64,000 nucleotides of DNA from Sphingobacteriales bacterium (lineage in GTDB: Bacteria; Bacteroidota; Bacteroidia; Chitinophagales; CAIOSU01), in contig JAIXOI010000035.1 of assembly GCA_027486795.1 (NCBI GenBank), positions 186,001 through 250,000 on the forward strand. Reading direction: 5' to 3'. The translations under genes were made by a program, and so were the position numbers. Below the pieces are notes generated by a model. That model was not told the origin of the DNA. It ran no database searches and worked only from the letters and a program-made list of their open reading frames with translations. Shown piece by piece: positions 2,013 to 62,596 of this stretch (its first letter is position 1; each line of letters begins with the position of its first letter).

Positions 2013-3575
2013 TTATTTATTGGCTTCTTGTTTAAGTTGTTCCAAAGCCATTTGCCGTTCAATTTCGAGGCGTTCGTCTACAACATTCACCAAGGGTCGG
2101 TTTTCAATTCTACTTATCAGCCAACAAATGGTTTCTTCTAATGCCAATCCATATTGATACTTTTCGAATATGGACAATAACTCGTCTCGCAATTGGGTTA
2201 AACTTTGTTTGGTCTCCTTTTTATCAGCGGCCCGAAGCATTCTTTTAATTCCTTTCAGAATAATGTCGTTGAATGGATTGTTGTGTTGTAGCTTGTTCGA
2301 AAAACGTATAGCCGAGCCCAGCAGGTATTCAACTACAGTGGGTGGAGAAATTTCAAAATGGCTCACCACGTGCAATATGCGGCTTGCCAAAATTTGCCCA
2401 ACATAGGTTGCTTCTTTTTCATTTATCACGTAATCAAACCTATCTGCAGCCTCACTGTAATTACCCATGATAAAGTGCAAACAGCCAACGTTGTATTTCA
2501 TTACAATGGTCTCGCTCCACGGAATGCTTAACTTGTATCTTACAATCATATCCTCCAACACCTTGGAAAGTTTTAGCGCCTCAGCCCACCGGCTATTATT
2601 CATGAGATAGAACATCTGGTTACCACCCATTTTTACTACTTTAAGCTCATTAAAATCATCAGGACCGTTACCAAGTCCCATTTTGTCAATGGTTTTCTCA
2701 TACCCTTCAAAATCATTGACCCTAATGGCTATAATTAGAAAATTGGTCAGCGCAAATTTGTAGTAGCTCGGGTACTCTTCTTTCATGTCTGGATGTTCAT
2801 CAAAAAGCTGCACATGTTGAAGCCTAACTTTGTACTGTTCCAGAAATGATTTTTCAATACCATAAACCCTTCCCATCATGGTATAGTACTCTTGTTTAGC
2901 AATAAAAGACTCTGCCAATTCAGGGTTTTTCAAATAATTTGACTCTCGTATTTCATTATACTTTTCCTGGTCGGCGGGTTGTAAAATACGTAAACCCTTT
3001 TTCGATATAATTTGAATCTCATTTTTTAGCTTTTTATACTCATAGTAGTTGTTGAGCAGCTTAGCATTTTTCTTCACTTCGTCATGATACGAATCAATCA
3101 ATTCTTTAGGGGTATCTTCTTCCAATTTCGATGCGAGCAAAAACTTCCAATCAATTAACAAGCCGTTTATGTGGAAAAAGTTAAGGTCATTAGCTATTTT
3201 CTGCGCCTTTTTTATTCGCTTATCACAATCTTCATACAACCGCTTTTCGTGCAACATGTCAATATCTTGCACAAGCCCTAAGAGCTTGATGTATCTACTC
3301 TTATCGGAGCGGAAAGCCCTCAATGTTTTTAGAATTAGCTCGTATAAATAATTTTTTTCGGCAGCTAGGTATTTAACAAACGGTTCTTTCTTAAATTTTT
3401 GCCTAAACTTAAGGTCATCAAACTCCTCCAATTTATCCATTGCATCAAACAACCGCATATAGTTGTTTTTTTCACCTATGGTGTGCGTGCTATTTACTTT
3501 AAAGTACCGCTTCTCCGCCTTGGTCATACTGCGGATTAACTGAAACAAGCTATCCTCCTTTATCTTCTCTGCCAT
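2013..3575 (-). CDS. Uncharacterised helical-repeat (TPR-like) protein
   Basis: The 520-residue protein has no signal peptide or membrane segment and looks cytoplasmic and almost wholly alpha-helical. It opens with LFQLIRSMTKAEKRYFK (residues 10-26), then a charged helical region, with repeated aromatic/leucine helix pairs through the middle resembling degenerate TPR units (for example MGNYSEAADRFDYVINEKEA). The C-terminus is a charged helix rich in Glu, Arg and Gln. The protein at 36092-37495 has the same layout and seems to be a distant paralogue. I know of such families expanded in Bacteroidetes but of no experimentally assigned function. A scaffold or regulatory role is only inference. 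It stands alone as a single-gene unit. Confidence 0.8.
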   Translation of the reverse strand: MAEKIKEDSLFQLIRSMTKAEKRYFKVNSTHTIGEKNNYMRLFDAMDKLEEFDDLKFRQKFKKEPFVKYLAAEKNYLYELILKTLRAFRSDKSRYIKLLGLVQDIDMLHEKRLYEDCDKRIKKAQKIANDLNFFHINGLLIDWKFLLASKLEEDTPKELIDSYHDEVKKNAKLLNNYYEYKKLKNEIQIISKKGLRILQPADQEKYNEIRESNYLKNPELAESFIAKQEYYTMMGRVYGIEKSFLEQYKVRLQHVQLFDEHPDMKEEYPSYYKFALTNFLIIAIRVNDFEGYEKTIDKMGLGNGPDDFNELKVVKMGGNQMFYLMNNSRWAEALKLSKVLEDMIVRYKLSIPWSETIVMKYNVGCLHFIMGNYSEAADRFDYVINEKEATYVGQILASRILHVVSHFEISPPTVVEYLLGSAIRFSNKLQHNNPFNDIILKGIKRMLRAADKKETKQSLTQLRDELLSIFEKYQYGLALEETICWLISRIENRPLVNVVDERLEIERQMALEQLKQEANK

Positions 3576-12620: not shown

Positions 12621-12648
12621 GTATTGAGTATAGAGTATTGAGTATAAA
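12621..12648. repeat. Degenerate 7-bp tandem array (4 units)
   Basis: Four head-to-tail heptamers: GTATTGA, GTATAGA, GTATTGA, GTATAAA. The array lies just upstream of the GT4 start. It has the same 7-base period as the arrays at 41751, 43157, 43199, 61548 and 61644, but a different word. Confidence 0.75.
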
Positions 12649-43147: not shown

Positions 43148-43156
43148 TTAACTAGT

Positions 43157-43184
43157 CCACGGTCCACAGTCAATGGTCCACAGA
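43157..43184. repeat. Degenerate 7-bp tandem array (4 units)
   Basis: GTCCACG, GTCCACA, GTCAATG, GTCCACA, head to tail, beginning nine bases after the ffh stop. The word is closely related to GTCCATG at 61548-61582. Confidence 0.8.
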
Positions 43185-43198
43185 AAGATTACTAACTG

Positions 43199-43240
43199 GT
43201 TAGTTCTTTAGCTTTAGTCTACTATTTACTAGTTACTAAT
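43199..43240. repeat. Degenerate 7-bp tandem array (6 units)
   Basis: TGGTTAG, TTCTTTA, GCTTTAG, TCTACTA, TTTACTA, GTTACTA, the last three clear and the first three weaker. It ends three bases before the stop codon of the collagen-like gene. With the 43157 array it fills nearly the whole gap between two convergent genes. Confidence 0.7.
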
Positions 43241-43243
43241 AAG

Positions 43244-58620: not shown

Positions 58621-61542
58621 ATGGAATATAAGTTTCAGGAGATTGAAGCGCGCTGGAAACAGTATTGGAAGGACAACCAAACCTATAAGGTAAGCAACGA
58701 CACCAACAAACAGAAGTGCTACGTGCTCGATATGTTCCCCTACCCGAGCGGTGCGGGCCTGCACGTGGGGCACCCGCTGGGCTATATTGCTACCGACATT
58801 TACAGCCGCTATAAACGCTTGAAAGGCTTCAACGTGTTGCACCCCATGGGCTTTGATGCTTTTGGTTTGCCAGCGGAGCAGTATGCCATACAAACTGGCC
58901 AGCACCCGGCCAAAACTACCGAAGTGAACATTGCCCGCTACAAGGAGCAGCTGGATGCCATCGGTTTTGATTACGATTGGAGCCGCGAGGTGCGCACCAG
59001 CGACCCGAAATACTACCAATTTACGCAGTGGATATTTATACAGTTGTTCCACTCCTACTACAATACCGCCGCCCAAAAGGCCCAGCCGATTGTGGACTTG
59101 GTAGCGGCTTTCGCCAAAGAAGGAAATACCAAAACAAATGCCGCTAGTGGCAAAATATCCACCTTTACCGCCGAGGAGTGGAACACCTACAGCGAGAAGC
59201 AGCAGCAGGAAACCTTGATGGAGTACCGCTTGGCGTACCTGAAGTACGGTGACGTAAACTGGTGCCCTGCCTTGGGCACGGTATTAGCCAACGACGAGGT
59301 GAAGGATGGCGTGAGCGAGCGCGGCGGACACCCGGTTATTAAAAAGAGCATGCGCCAGTGGTTTTTGCGCATTACCGCCTATGCCCAGCGCTTGCTGGAT
59401 GGGTTGGATACCGTTGACTTTGCCGAGAGCCTGAAGGAACAGCAACGCAACTGGATAGGCCGCAGCGAAGGCGCCAGTGTGCAGTTTAACCTGGTTGGCA
59501 GGGATGAGAAAATAGAGGTGTTTACCACTCGGCCCGATACCATTTTCGGGGCGACGTTTTTGGTGTTGGCACCCGAGCACCCCTTGGTGGCGGAGATTAG
59601 CACCAACACGGCAGCAATAGAAGAATACAAAGCCTACGTGCAGAGCCGCAGTGAGCGCGACCGCCAAGCCGATGTAAAGACTGTGAGCGGCGCCTTTACT
59701 GGAGCATACGCACACAACTCATTTACGGGCGAGAACGTGCCGATTTGGATTGCCGAATATGTATTGATGGGCTACGGCACCGGTGCCATTATGGCCGTGC
59801 CGAGCGATGACGACCGCGACAATGCATTTGCAACCAAGTTTGGCCTACCGATAGTTGATGTAATAGATAAGAGTGACTACCCGGGCGCTACCCGTAGCGA
59901 CAAGCTGGGCAAGTTGATCAACTCTGGGTTTTTGGATGGGTTGGAAGTACCTGCTGCCATTAGCTTGATGTGCCGTAAGGTAGAGGAAATGGGCATCGGC
60001 AAGGGCCGCGTAAACTACCGCATGCGCGATGCGGGCTTTAGCCGCCAACGATACTGGGGCGAGCCATTCCCGGTGATATATAAGGACGAGATGCCGTATA
60101 CCTTGCCCGAGAACGAATTGCCTGTAAACTTGCCTGATGTGGAGAGCTTTAAGCCCACGGGCGACGGCGACTCGCCATTGGCGCGCAATACTGATTGGGT
60201 AAACCACCCCGACGGACCGCGCGAAACGGACACCATGCCGGGCTATGCCGGCAGTAGCTGGTACTTCCTGCGCTATATGGACCCGCAGAATGGTGGGTTC
60301 TTTGTAGGCAAGGAGGCTGTAAACTATTGGCAAGATGTGGACCTATACGTTGGTGGTGCCGAGCACGCCGTGGGCCACTTACTATACAGCCGCTTTTGGC
60401 ACAAGTTCTTCTTTGATAAAGGCTGGGTGCCTACCCAAGAGCCATATAAGAAGCTGGTGAACCAAGGGATGATACAGGGGGTGAGTGAGAAGATTTACTT
60501 GAACATTAACAAAACAAGTACTACTCAACTTTATAAAACTAATGAAGGCGTTACAATTACTAGTCTAGCTATTAGTCAAGATGTAGTAAACGTTTTTTAT
60601 AGTGCGGACATTTACAATGAGTTTATAAAAGGAAGTAACTACGATACCGTAATTGAAATCCATGTTCCAGTTGAGCTTGTTGAAAACAGCAATGTAAATC
60701 TTCATGAGTTTATTAAGTTCATGCCTGAGTACAGGTTTTCAGTATTCCTTACCAATGATGGCCGATACTGGTCAAATGGCAAATTCTGGCAAAACAACAA
60801 TTTAATAGCTTCGAACGAAGGCACAATTGAAAGTTATAAGTCGTTTTCCTTTGTCGAGAAAATGTCGAAATCCAAGTGGAACGTAGTAAATCCCGATATC
60901 GTAATCGAAAAATACGGTGCCGATACCTTCCGCATGTACGAGATGTTTTTGGGTCCGATTGAGCAGAGCAAGCCTTGGATAACCAATGGCTTGGATGGCG
61001 TACACAAATTCTTGCGCAAGTTTTGGAGGATGTTTTACGGTGAGGAAGGCTTAGCGATTACCGATGAGGCCCCGACTGCCGAGGAGTTGAAGGTGTTGCA
61101 CAAAACCATCAAGAAGATTCAGGATGATGTGGAGCGCCTGTCGTTCAACACCTGCATCAGTGCCTTTATGATTGCCACCAATGAGCTCACCGATTTGAAG
61201 TGTCGCAAACGCGCCATCTTAAAGGAGTTGACCATACTGTTGGCACCATTTGCCCCGCACATTGCCGAGGAATTGTGGCAAAACGCTTTAGGAGAAAATG
61301 GTACGGTGGTGTATGCGCCATTCCCTAAGTTTGATGAAAGCGTGTTGGTAGAGAGTAACTTCAACTACCCCGTGTCCATCAACGGCAAGGTCCGCGCCAC
61401 CATCGATTTCCCGCTGGACTATAACGAGGACCAAGTAAAACCTGAGGTGCTGGCCAATGAGCAAGTACAGAAATGGCTAGAAGGCAAGGACCCTAAGAAG
61501 TTTATCTTCGTGAAGGGCAGGATTATTAATGTGGTGGTATAA
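58621..61542 (+). CDS. leuS: Leucyl-tRNA synthetase
   Basis: The 973-residue class I synthetase charges tRNA-Leu. HVGH at residues 48-51 (GAGLHVGHPLGY) and KMSKS at 747-751 (VEKMSKSKWNVV) form the catalytic site. The CP1 editing domain is present (TRPDTIFGATFLVLAPEHP, GTGAIMAVPSDDDRD). The C-terminal anticodon-binding and tail domains are complete. Residues about 625-746 are an inserted module between GMIQG and KMSKS, larger and more divergent than in usual bacterial enzymes and visibly AT-richer at DNA level than the rest of the gene. Bacteroidetes LeuS do carry an insert here. Confidence 0.95.
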   Translation: MEYKFQEIEARWKQYWKDNQTYKVSNDTNKQKCYVLDMFPYPSGAGLHVGHPLGYIATDIYSRYKRLKGFNVLHPMGFDAFGLPAEQYAIQTGQHPAKTTEVNIARYKEQLDAIGFDYDWSREVRTSDPKYYQFTQWIFIQLFHSYYNTAAQKAQPIVDLVAAFAKEGNTKTNAASGKISTFTAEEWNTYSEKQQQETLMEYRLAYLKYGDVNWCPALGTVLANDEVKDGVSERGGHPVIKKSMRQWFLRITAYAQRLLDGLDTVDFAESLKEQQRNWIGRSEGASVQFNLVGRDEKIEVFTTRPDTIFGATFLVLAPEHPLVAEISTNTAAIEEYKAYVQSRSERDRQADVKTVSGAFTGAYAHNSFTGENVPIWIAEYVLMGYGTGAIMAVPSDDDRDNAFATKFGLPIVDVIDKSDYPGATRSDKLGKLINSGFLDGLEVPAAISLMCRKVEEMGIGKGRVNYRMRDAGFSRQRYWGEPFPVIYKDEMPYTLPENELPVNLPDVESFKPTGDGDSPLARNTDWVNHPDGPRETDTMPGYAGSSWYFLRYMDPQNGGFFVGKEAVNYWQDVDLYVGGAEHAVGHLLYSRFWHKFFFDKGWVPTQEPYKKLVNQGMIQGVSEKIYLNINKTSTTQLYKTNEGVTITSLAISQDVVNVFYSADIYNEFIKGSNYDTVIEIHVPVELVENSNVNLHEFIKFMPEYRFSVFLTNDGRYWSNGKFWQNNNLIASNEGTIESYKSFSFVEKMSKSKWNVVNPDIVIEKYGADTFRMYEMFLGPIEQSKPWITNGLDGVHKFLRKFWRMFYGEEGLAITDEAPTAEELKVLHKTIKKIQDDVERLSFNTCISAFMIATNELTDLKCRKRAILKELTILLAPFAPHIAEELWQNALGENGTVVYAPFPKFDESVLVESNFNYPVSINGKVRATIDFPLDYNEDQVKPEVLANEQVQKWLEGKDPKKFIFVKGRIINVVV

Positions 61543-61547
61543 GTTTG

Positions 61548-61582
61548 GTCCATGGTCGACGGACGATGGTCCATGGATGATG
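61548..61582. repeat. Degenerate 7-bp tandem array (5 units)
   Basis: GTCCATG, GTCGACG, GACGATG, GTCCATG, GATGATG, head to tail, starting five bases after the leuS stop. Its inverse complement is the array at 61644-61671, on the other side of the terminator. Confidence 0.85.
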
Positions 61583-61600
61583 TGTATTACGATAAAACAA

Positions 61601-61639
61601 AAAGTAAAGGCGGGTAACTAAGTTATCCGCCTTTACTTT
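61601..61639. terminator. Bidirectional terminator between leuS and the esterase gene
   Basis: AAAGTAAAGGCGGGTAACT and AGTTATCCGCCTTTACTTT form a near-perfect 19-base stem with one G-T pair, flanked by an A-run and a T-run, so it can end transcription from both sides. It sits between two inversely oriented heptamer arrays. Confidence 0.9.
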
Positions 61640-61643
61640 TTTT

Positions 61644-61671
61644 ACCATGGACTATGGACCATCGACCATGG
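61644..61671. repeat. Degenerate 7-bp tandem array (4 units)
   Basis: ACCATGG, ACTATGG, ACCATCG, ACCATGG, head to tail, ending just before the esterase stop codon. It is the inverted counterpart of 61548-61582; together they could form a long foldback around the terminator. Confidence 0.85.
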
Positions 61672-61672
61672 A

Positions 61673-62596
61673 CTAATTCATCCCCAACTGCTTGCGCATA
61701 AACGCTCCCATCTGCTTTATAGATTCGCGGGCTTCGGGCAAAAAGAAATCATACATCTGCCATACATGAAAGGTATGCCCCCACTCTACCAATTCAACCT
61801 TTACGCCAGCAGCTTCGGCCTTAGCGGCTATGCGCACTGAGTCGCTATGAATCAACTCCACCGAACCACATTGAAGCATCATAGGTGGCAGACCAGTGTA
61901 GTCGCCATAAATGGGCGATATAAAAGGATTGCGCAAATCGGCTTTGCCAGCATATAGCTTTCCATGCCAAATAAGGGCTTCGTTAGTTAGTACACTGTCT
62001 CTCCTCCTCGGCACTCTATTCGACTCGCCTGCACCTTCCAAATCTCCCCAAGGCGAAAGCAGTACTGCGGCAGCGGGCATGGGCATACCCAATTCTCTTA
62101 GCTTTAACAAAGTTGCGGCTGTGAGCCCTCCGCCAGCCGAGTCGCCGGCAATTACAATATCAGCTGGTTTATAACCCTCGCCCAACAAATATTGAAAACC
62201 AGCAACGGCATCTTCCAAAGCCGCTGGGTATAGGTGCTCGGGTGCCATGCGGTACTCAATGGCAAAAGCCGTAATGCCAGCAGCCTCCGCTATTTTGGTT
62301 ATCATACGGCGGTGGGTCTCCAGCGAGCAAAGAGCATATGCACCACCATGCAAATAATATAGGGCTTTGTCATGCCTTGCTCCGTTTGGGGTAATCCGTT
62401 CGGCCTTTAGCCCCGCCATTAGTATTGGTTGTACTGTATTGTTCTTGGCCCTAGGCAAAAACCATCGGGCAGCAAGGTCCATATCTCTGCGCATCCTAGC
62501 CACGGTAGGCAACCGTTTGCCAATAAATAGCCTAACAAAACGCAACAAGAACCTAAATATGGCCAGTTGCCAACTTTTCTTTTCGCCTACTTTCAT
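61673..62596 (-). CDS. Alpha/beta hydrolase, hormone-sensitive-lipase-type esterase
   Basis: The 307-residue protein is an HSL-family (alpha/beta hydrolase fold 3) esterase. The oxyanion-hole motif is HGGAY (usually HGGG), the nucleophile Ser lies in GDSAGGGLTAA, and the catalytic His in EWGHTFHVWQ. The acid residue is probably in CGSVELIHSDS. There is no signal peptide, so it is cytoplasmic. The N-terminal 50 residues are basic and amphipathic, as a cap. The substrate is unknown; short-chain esters are likely. It converges with leuS. Confidence 0.9.
   Translation of the reverse strand: MKVGEKKSWQLAIFRFLLRFVRLFIGKRLPTVARMRRDMDLAARWFLPRAKNNTVQPILMAGLKAERITPNGARHDKALYYLHGGAYALCSLETHRRMITKIAEAAGITAFAIEYRMAPEHLYPAALEDAVAGFQYLLGEGYKPADIVIAGDSAGGGLTAATLLKLRELGMPMPAAAVLLSPWGDLEGAGESNRVPRRRDSVLTNEALIWHGKLYAGKADLRNPFISPIYGDYTGLPPMMLQCGSVELIHSDSVRIAAKAEAAGVKVELVEWGHTFHVWQMYDFFLPEARESIKQMGAFMRKQLGMN

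Follow-up and report, generated by a model that had tools for sequence, protein, structure and literature searches.

Inward-facing heptamer arrays at gene ends in a genus of Bacteroidota: possible traces of recurrent intergenic replacement

The gap between leuS and an esterase gene

Between the convergent genes for leucyl-tRNA synthetase and an esterase lies a terminator enclosed by two inverted arrays of tandem heptamers, and this nested arrangement raises the question of whether the arrays belong to the terminator, to a mobile repeat, or to another process acting on intergenic DNA. We addressed this question in a window of 64,000 nucleotides (the whole stretch of DNA analyzed, to which coordinates refer unless a contig is named), which is part of a 3.9-Mb genome in 59 contigs (97.6% complete; hereafter G000), and in its relatives. 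The features concerned are as follows.

58621..61542, plus strand: leuS, leucyl-tRNA synthetase of 973 aa (open reading frame; Pfam tRNA-synt_1_2, tRNA-synt_1 and Anticodon_1), whose stop borders the element
61545-61576, plus strand (leuS sense, inward): left GTC-family heptamer array, TTGGTCCATGGTCGACGGACGATGGTCCATGG
61599-61641, both strands: bidirectional intrinsic terminator with 21-nt arms and A/T tails, from stem search and folding
61645-61676, minus strand (esterase sense, inward): right GTC-family heptamer array, CCATGGACTATGGACCATCGACCATGGACTAA
61673..62596, minus strand: alpha/beta hydrolase (esterase) gene, Pfam Abhydrolase_3
43153..43180, plus strand: second GTC-family array of the window, 5 nt past a stop codon

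The leuS-esterase gap is filled by two inverted [TC][GA]GTC[CG]A arrays framing a normal bidirectional terminator. The arrays, of which the right one reads TTAGTCCATGGTCGATGGTCCATAGTCCATGG on the minus strand, are 84% complementary across 32 nt, and the terminator arms are 95% complementary with 1 nt between them, so that the inverted arrays around a terminator described in the sequence-only reading are indeed present. The proposed folding of the whole unit on itself was likewise borne out: the 141-nt RNA of the element reached -75.2 kcal/mol compared with -31.6 for shuffles (z = -12.75), and the RNA of the opposite strand -66.5 kcal/mol (z = -10.9). Both outer boundaries, however, had to be redrawn. 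The left array begins about 3 nt, not five bases, past the leuS stop at 61542, and the right array does not end one base short of the esterase stop but includes it, the TAG at 61673-61675 (minus strand) being that of a TAGTCCA unit. The esterase C-terminus reads LGMN* in G000 and LGMG* in the sister species, G003.

The hallmarks of an intrinsic terminator, a G+C-rich hairpin and a U tract, are found in the inner stem and not in the arrays; a consensus terminator scan overlooked this stem, which direct stem search and folding reveal. We regard it as an ordinary terminator that lies within an array gap and performs its own job, and the earlier view that a terminator by itself is insufficient to explain the nested arrangement is supported. 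An Rfam search of the element returned no family. Across the window, the motif ATGGACYATGGAC (two or fewer mismatches) matched 11 times compared with 1.87 expected, a number that no shuffle reached, and six of the 11 matches sit in the leuS-esterase gap. The second array, at 43153-43180, lies opposite a degenerate array of TAGTAAC type (about 43210-43242). In another gap of the window (12621-12646), a short array of period 7, GTATTGAGTATAGAGTATTGAGTAT, is similar to the AGTATCA family introduced below.

A genus-wide class of gap-edge arrays

Similar heptamer arrays, which the sequence-only reading had suggested looking for elsewhere in the genome, were found there: the GTC-type pattern matched 31 times in G000 compared with 0 for a reversed-pattern control, and all five members of the genus (G000 to G004) are rich in it. 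A second family, GTTRCGR, gave 71 matches in G000 and 138, 44, 192, and 38 in the other four genomes, with 0 in the reversed controls, and is nearly missing outside the genus; across the phylum, the GTC family occurs sporadically, in 12 of 296 genomes. The same array anatomy is seen in the cultured isolates Chitinophaga rupis and Mucilaginibacter myungsuensis and is therefore not an artifact of metagenome assembly. As a side observation, the reversed control pattern (ASCTGRY repeated) matched up to 74 times in single genomes of other Bacteroidota (G158, G154, G139, and G135 among them), and another heptamer family, of type TAGCTGA, is therefore abundant elsewhere in the phylum.

For a closer view, we surveyed 1.2 Mb of G000, 1.2 Mb of G003, 180 kb of G001, and 100 kb of G004, with genes called by a simple home-made caller, array families defined by eye and counted afterwards, and G000 contigs picked for holding array matches and not for the position of the matches within the contig. 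The genus contains at least eight families, seven of period 7 and one of period 8. Written inward, they are [TC][GA]GTC[CG]A, GTTRCGR, AATTTGAA (period 8), TTGGTTA, AGATGAC/AAATAAG, GTACGAA, AGTATCA, and AAGACAC. At the edges of 1361 gaps, we counted 195 lag-7 and 65 lag-8 arrays, compared with 5 each in shuffles, and the remaining lags between 4 and 12 were close to background. Among the 55 GTC-family arrays of G000 and G003, 54 are intergenic, and four units (n = 24) are commoner than five (n = 14) or three (n = 8); variation among units is confined to fixed positions, in part as a result of the search pattern. Edge arrays are rich in G on their inward strand (1741 G vs 872 C), a skew that non-array stop edges do not show.

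The arrays are strictly placed and oriented. GTC-family arrays in gene sense lie no more than 10 nt from a stop codon 14 times in G000 (null 1.5) and 7 times in G003 (null 1.45), counts reached in 0 of 2000 simulations for each genome, whereas antisense arrays do so 0 times and once, respectively. Same-family neighbors no more than 400 bp apart face inward in 44 cases and outward in one, with six in ++ and one in -- orientation, orthologous loci of G000 and G003 entering this count twice; a separate GTTRCGR list from G001 and G004 gave 13 inward pairs and none of any other orientation. Inverted matches from edge to edge were found in 28 of 559 gaps in G000 (2.0 expected) and in 30 of 562 in G003 (1.0 expected). 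They are commoner in convergent and co-directional gaps than in divergent ones, and pairs occur in all three settings, so that a restriction to convergent gene ends is not supported. Arrays are present at both edges of 48 gaps (11.9 expected), and one family occupies both edges in 17 of the 20 two-edge gaps with assignable families; the other 160 of the 208 array gaps have an array on a single edge, opposite which a degenerate or more distant array may lie.

Within a pair, the arms are independent of each other. In three families, arm similarity within and across pairs was 18.6 vs 20.7, 21.2 vs 22.3, and 19.7 vs 20.8 (small samples, n = 7, 5, and 7), and we rejected copying of one arm from the other and selection on the stem, since two arms resemble each other no more within a pair than between pairs. 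The interiors of 40 pairs are nearly all unique and, beyond the arrays and a few weak cases, match only their own orthologue, which led us to reject a mobile unit with a conserved core; the leuS-gap interior occurs once in G000 and was not found in G001 to G006. A special tie to terminators was not confirmed either. A strong bidirectional terminator is present in one of the six strict GTC-family pairs of G000, and convergent gaps with edge arrays contain fewer terminator-like hairpins than others (12 of 38 vs 68 of 124, P = 0.016), a trend opposite to a preference for terminators; the idea that the element inserts or grows at terminators is therefore unsupported. Given that paired arms show no extra likeness, interiors are unique, and terminators are underrepresented, the arrays find an explanation neither in a conserved hairpin nor in growth at terminators.

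Turnover between sister species and the origin of the arrays

The possibility of a fixed, conserved gap was ruled out by the relatives, in which four lineages have four different inverted repeats downstream of leuS: GTC arrays in G000, GTTRCGR-type arrays in G003, an GTCATTGCGA-type inverted element in G004, and a CACTAAGG/CACAAAGG inverted repeat in G001, next to leuS protein ends that are 92-98% identical. In G004 the leuS-esterase gap contains the inverted GTCATTGCGA...GAAGCAATC type element (C121, about 3148-3375); in G001 a different gene adjoins leuS, and the esterase lies about 3 kb further. The esterase frame of G004 contains several stops.

To see how array gaps change, we compared 345 orthologous gaps of one species pair, G000 and G003 (~95% identical), and took gap identity below 0.65 as whole replacement. 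In 52 of these gaps, an array is present in one or both species, and 15 of the 52 have been replaced whole, compared with 11 of the 293 gaps without arrays (odds ratio 10.4, P = 1.5e-7). Where both species have arrays, the families are disjoint in five gaps, and in some gaps, that of leuS included, both arms have switched family together. The replacements break at the stop codon: at 20 stop edges, identity over the final 30 nt of the gene was 0.91 and 0.85; it stood at 0.82 at the stop codon and fell to 0.48 at +1 to +6. The stop codon itself is altered at 9 of these 20 edges compared with 18 of 216 others (P = 6e-5), and protein length is unchanged at 19 of the 20. Thus, of the array growth proposed in the sequence-only reading, one part stands, as the array at 43153 measures 28 nt in G000 and 42 nt in G003, but changes in unit number are seen at a few loci only, and the main change is replacement of the whole gap by another family. 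Apart from these gaps, we observed a dispersed unit that combines, in this order, GTTTTGTCGTCCACGAAGTGAGGATTG.CGAGGG, a GTACGAT array, GTGTATTA, and a GTC-family array in inverted orientation (G000:C33:271964-272342 and G000:C57:49020-49674); a C33 copy that lies between direct repeats (about 148 nt) is missing in G003.

Taken together, the strict polarity, the use of a single family on either side of a gap, the independence of the arms, the uniqueness of the interiors, and the reach of the replacements as far as the stop codon suggest that gaps are rewritten. An occasional event would replace the DNA lying between two genes, and arrays of one family would then be laid inward, 5' to 3', from both gene edges; selection would keep the coding sequence, leaving surviving junctions at stop codons, and the arrays might themselves provide the stop codon. 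From the observed pattern and replacements we infer such an event and an enzyme behind it, and we give roughly even chances to the reading that recurrent gap rewriting has produced a genus-wide class of paired gap-edge arrays, of which the leuS-gap feature is one copy. Random rewriting under selection alone, though, would not put so many junctions right at the stop codon, and the single-edge arrays of most array gaps count against this reading too.

The near-constant length of four to five units, the fixed sense orientation past stop codons, the swapping of families at a given site, and the lower number of terminators in array gaps would also fit a boundary element kept by selection at the 3' ends of genes, in which interchangeable families act as a transcription barrier, protect RNA 3' ends, or form a protein-binding array of ~30 nt. 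Such a function could account for the length and the sense orientation but not for the many families: a single binding protein would favor one motif and not eight families that are each homogeneous within an array. Since, in addition, pairing between the arms is not constrained, divergent gaps hold arrays too, and most orthologous gaps do without them, we consider a boundary element unlikely.

An improbable origin, to about the same degree, is a nonautonomous REPIN/BIME-like element whose ends, the arrays, would be recognized by a Y1 (RAYT-like) transposase and inserted in extragenic DNA. The inward-facing one-family pairs fit this idea, as does the finding that each of the five genus members has Y1_Tnp proteins, with scores >80 bits in G000 to G003 and in the array-rich G037 and weak matches only in the array-poor G005 and G006. 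Moreover, an inward GTTRCGR pair on contig C2 of G001 (178037 on the plus and 178840 on the minus strand, spanning 178037-178882) encloses a Y1_Tnp (PF01797) gene at 178217-178561. This enclosure is a lead only, since it is a single case and none of the 44 inward pairs of the 400-bp neighbor count encloses a gene. The array-rich G004 has weak Y1 matches only, and shared spacers are missing, arms are independent draws, families number at least eight per genome, and most of them do not fold as single-arm hairpins.

Could the arrays instead be old and static, with the differences between sister species due to homologous recombination that imports other gap alleles together with their flanks? In leuS, an internal stretch in the 3' part, beside the swapped gap, is strongly divergent between the sister species (60480-61104, C33:246480-247104; 379 vs 214 nt), which suggests recombination at that spot; the stretch may be a recombination tract or a variable insertion domain. 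Flank identity is lowered in some gaps (91.8% on the leuS side), which counts against rewriting, and import of old alleles could therefore account for part of the swaps. Yet the flanks of replaced gaps are not less conserved overall (P = 0.39), junctions lie at stop codons and not within genes, and the origin of arrays on both edges is left unexplained, so that as a general account recombination seems to us rather improbable.

Replication slippage, which would make heptamer microsatellites that template switching copies inverted to the opposite gap edge, agrees with the changes in unit number and with the preference for period 7 in many bacterial genomes (Mrazek 2007, as reported in PMC4679880) but is very unlikely, because array length clusters at four to five units, copied arms should be more alike than those of other gaps, polarity should be random among gaps and is 44:1 inward, and slippage cannot exchange the family of both arms.

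For the rewriting of gaps, a reverse transcriptase was considered as the writer of the arrays and rejected: PF00078 has no match in G001 to G004 and one in G000, and with four of five genomes unmatched, this candidate therefore has little in its favor. It is tempting to speculate, by analogy, that a DNA-end or gap-rewriting activity somewhat resembling telomere addition adds short, family-specific heptamer tracts to both sides of a gap and so renews intergenic DNA up to the stop codons, a doubtful proposal of which tracts that always run 5' to 3' inward with the G-richer strand would form part. Bacterial heptamer repeats have been on record for decades, and we know of no account of their origin. 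The pattern described here yields testable rules (families, length, polarity, start at the stop codon, one family per pair, and replacement of the entire gap) and points to an unrecognized process that may renew the intergenic DNA of bacteria.

Comparison with known repeat systems

REPs are palindromic hairpins of 20-40 nt in one or few families, and REPIN/BIME elements are moved by RAYT (Y1) transposases. The arrays resemble them as short inverted extragenic pairs in many degenerate copies, in genomes that contain Y1 proteins, but differ in consisting of tandem heptamers in at least eight families, with interiors not shared between copies. Palindromic units are not apparent, as GTC-family arms fold modestly as single hairpins and arms of the TTGGTTA and AATTTGAA families no better than shuffles; the 40 interiors nearly all lack a shared spacer apart from orthologues; and one Y1 gene, that of G001 described above, lies within an inward pair. 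Shared terminal inverted repeats and target duplications, as in MITEs, were not seen either: the arms are independent, and no obvious target duplication was found at replaced gaps, whose junctions lie at stop codons. Integron attC core sites (RYYYAAC/GTTRRRY) have a polarity opposite to that of the arrays and form no tandem arrays, and it is by this general description that we set them apart.

TAACTGA direct repeats of Beggiatoaceae, cyanobacteria, and some Bacteroidetes form arrays of two to six units and belong to a single family, mostly in forward orientation just upstream of start codons, with one inverted repeat reported (MacGregor 2015, PMC4679880). They share with the present arrays the intergenic location, the heptamer unit, and one favored orientation; unlike them, the present arrays sit at stops and come in many families.

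The nearest described case in the open-licence literature is that of the Xanthomonas GGGAATC pairs, and an earlier description of the class elsewhere is possible. These repeats are position-degenerate heptamers, mostly in four units, about 90% intergenic and nearer the 5' neighboring ORF (mean 28 nt), with 70-75 convergent pairs; they are one G-quadruplex-forming family, 83% of which is at the same place in two species, in more conserved regions (Rehm et al. 2015, PMC4692102). The two classes have in common that their heptamer arrays are intergenic, comprise about four units, and form convergent pairs close to the 5' neighboring ORF. In contrast to the Xanthomonas type, there are several families here, and a G-quadruplex was rejected for the main one, as GTC-family units contain no GGG tracts. 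Moreover, the present arrays start strictly at the stop codon, and their gaps undergo whole replacement about ten times as frequently as other gaps do, with exchange of families.
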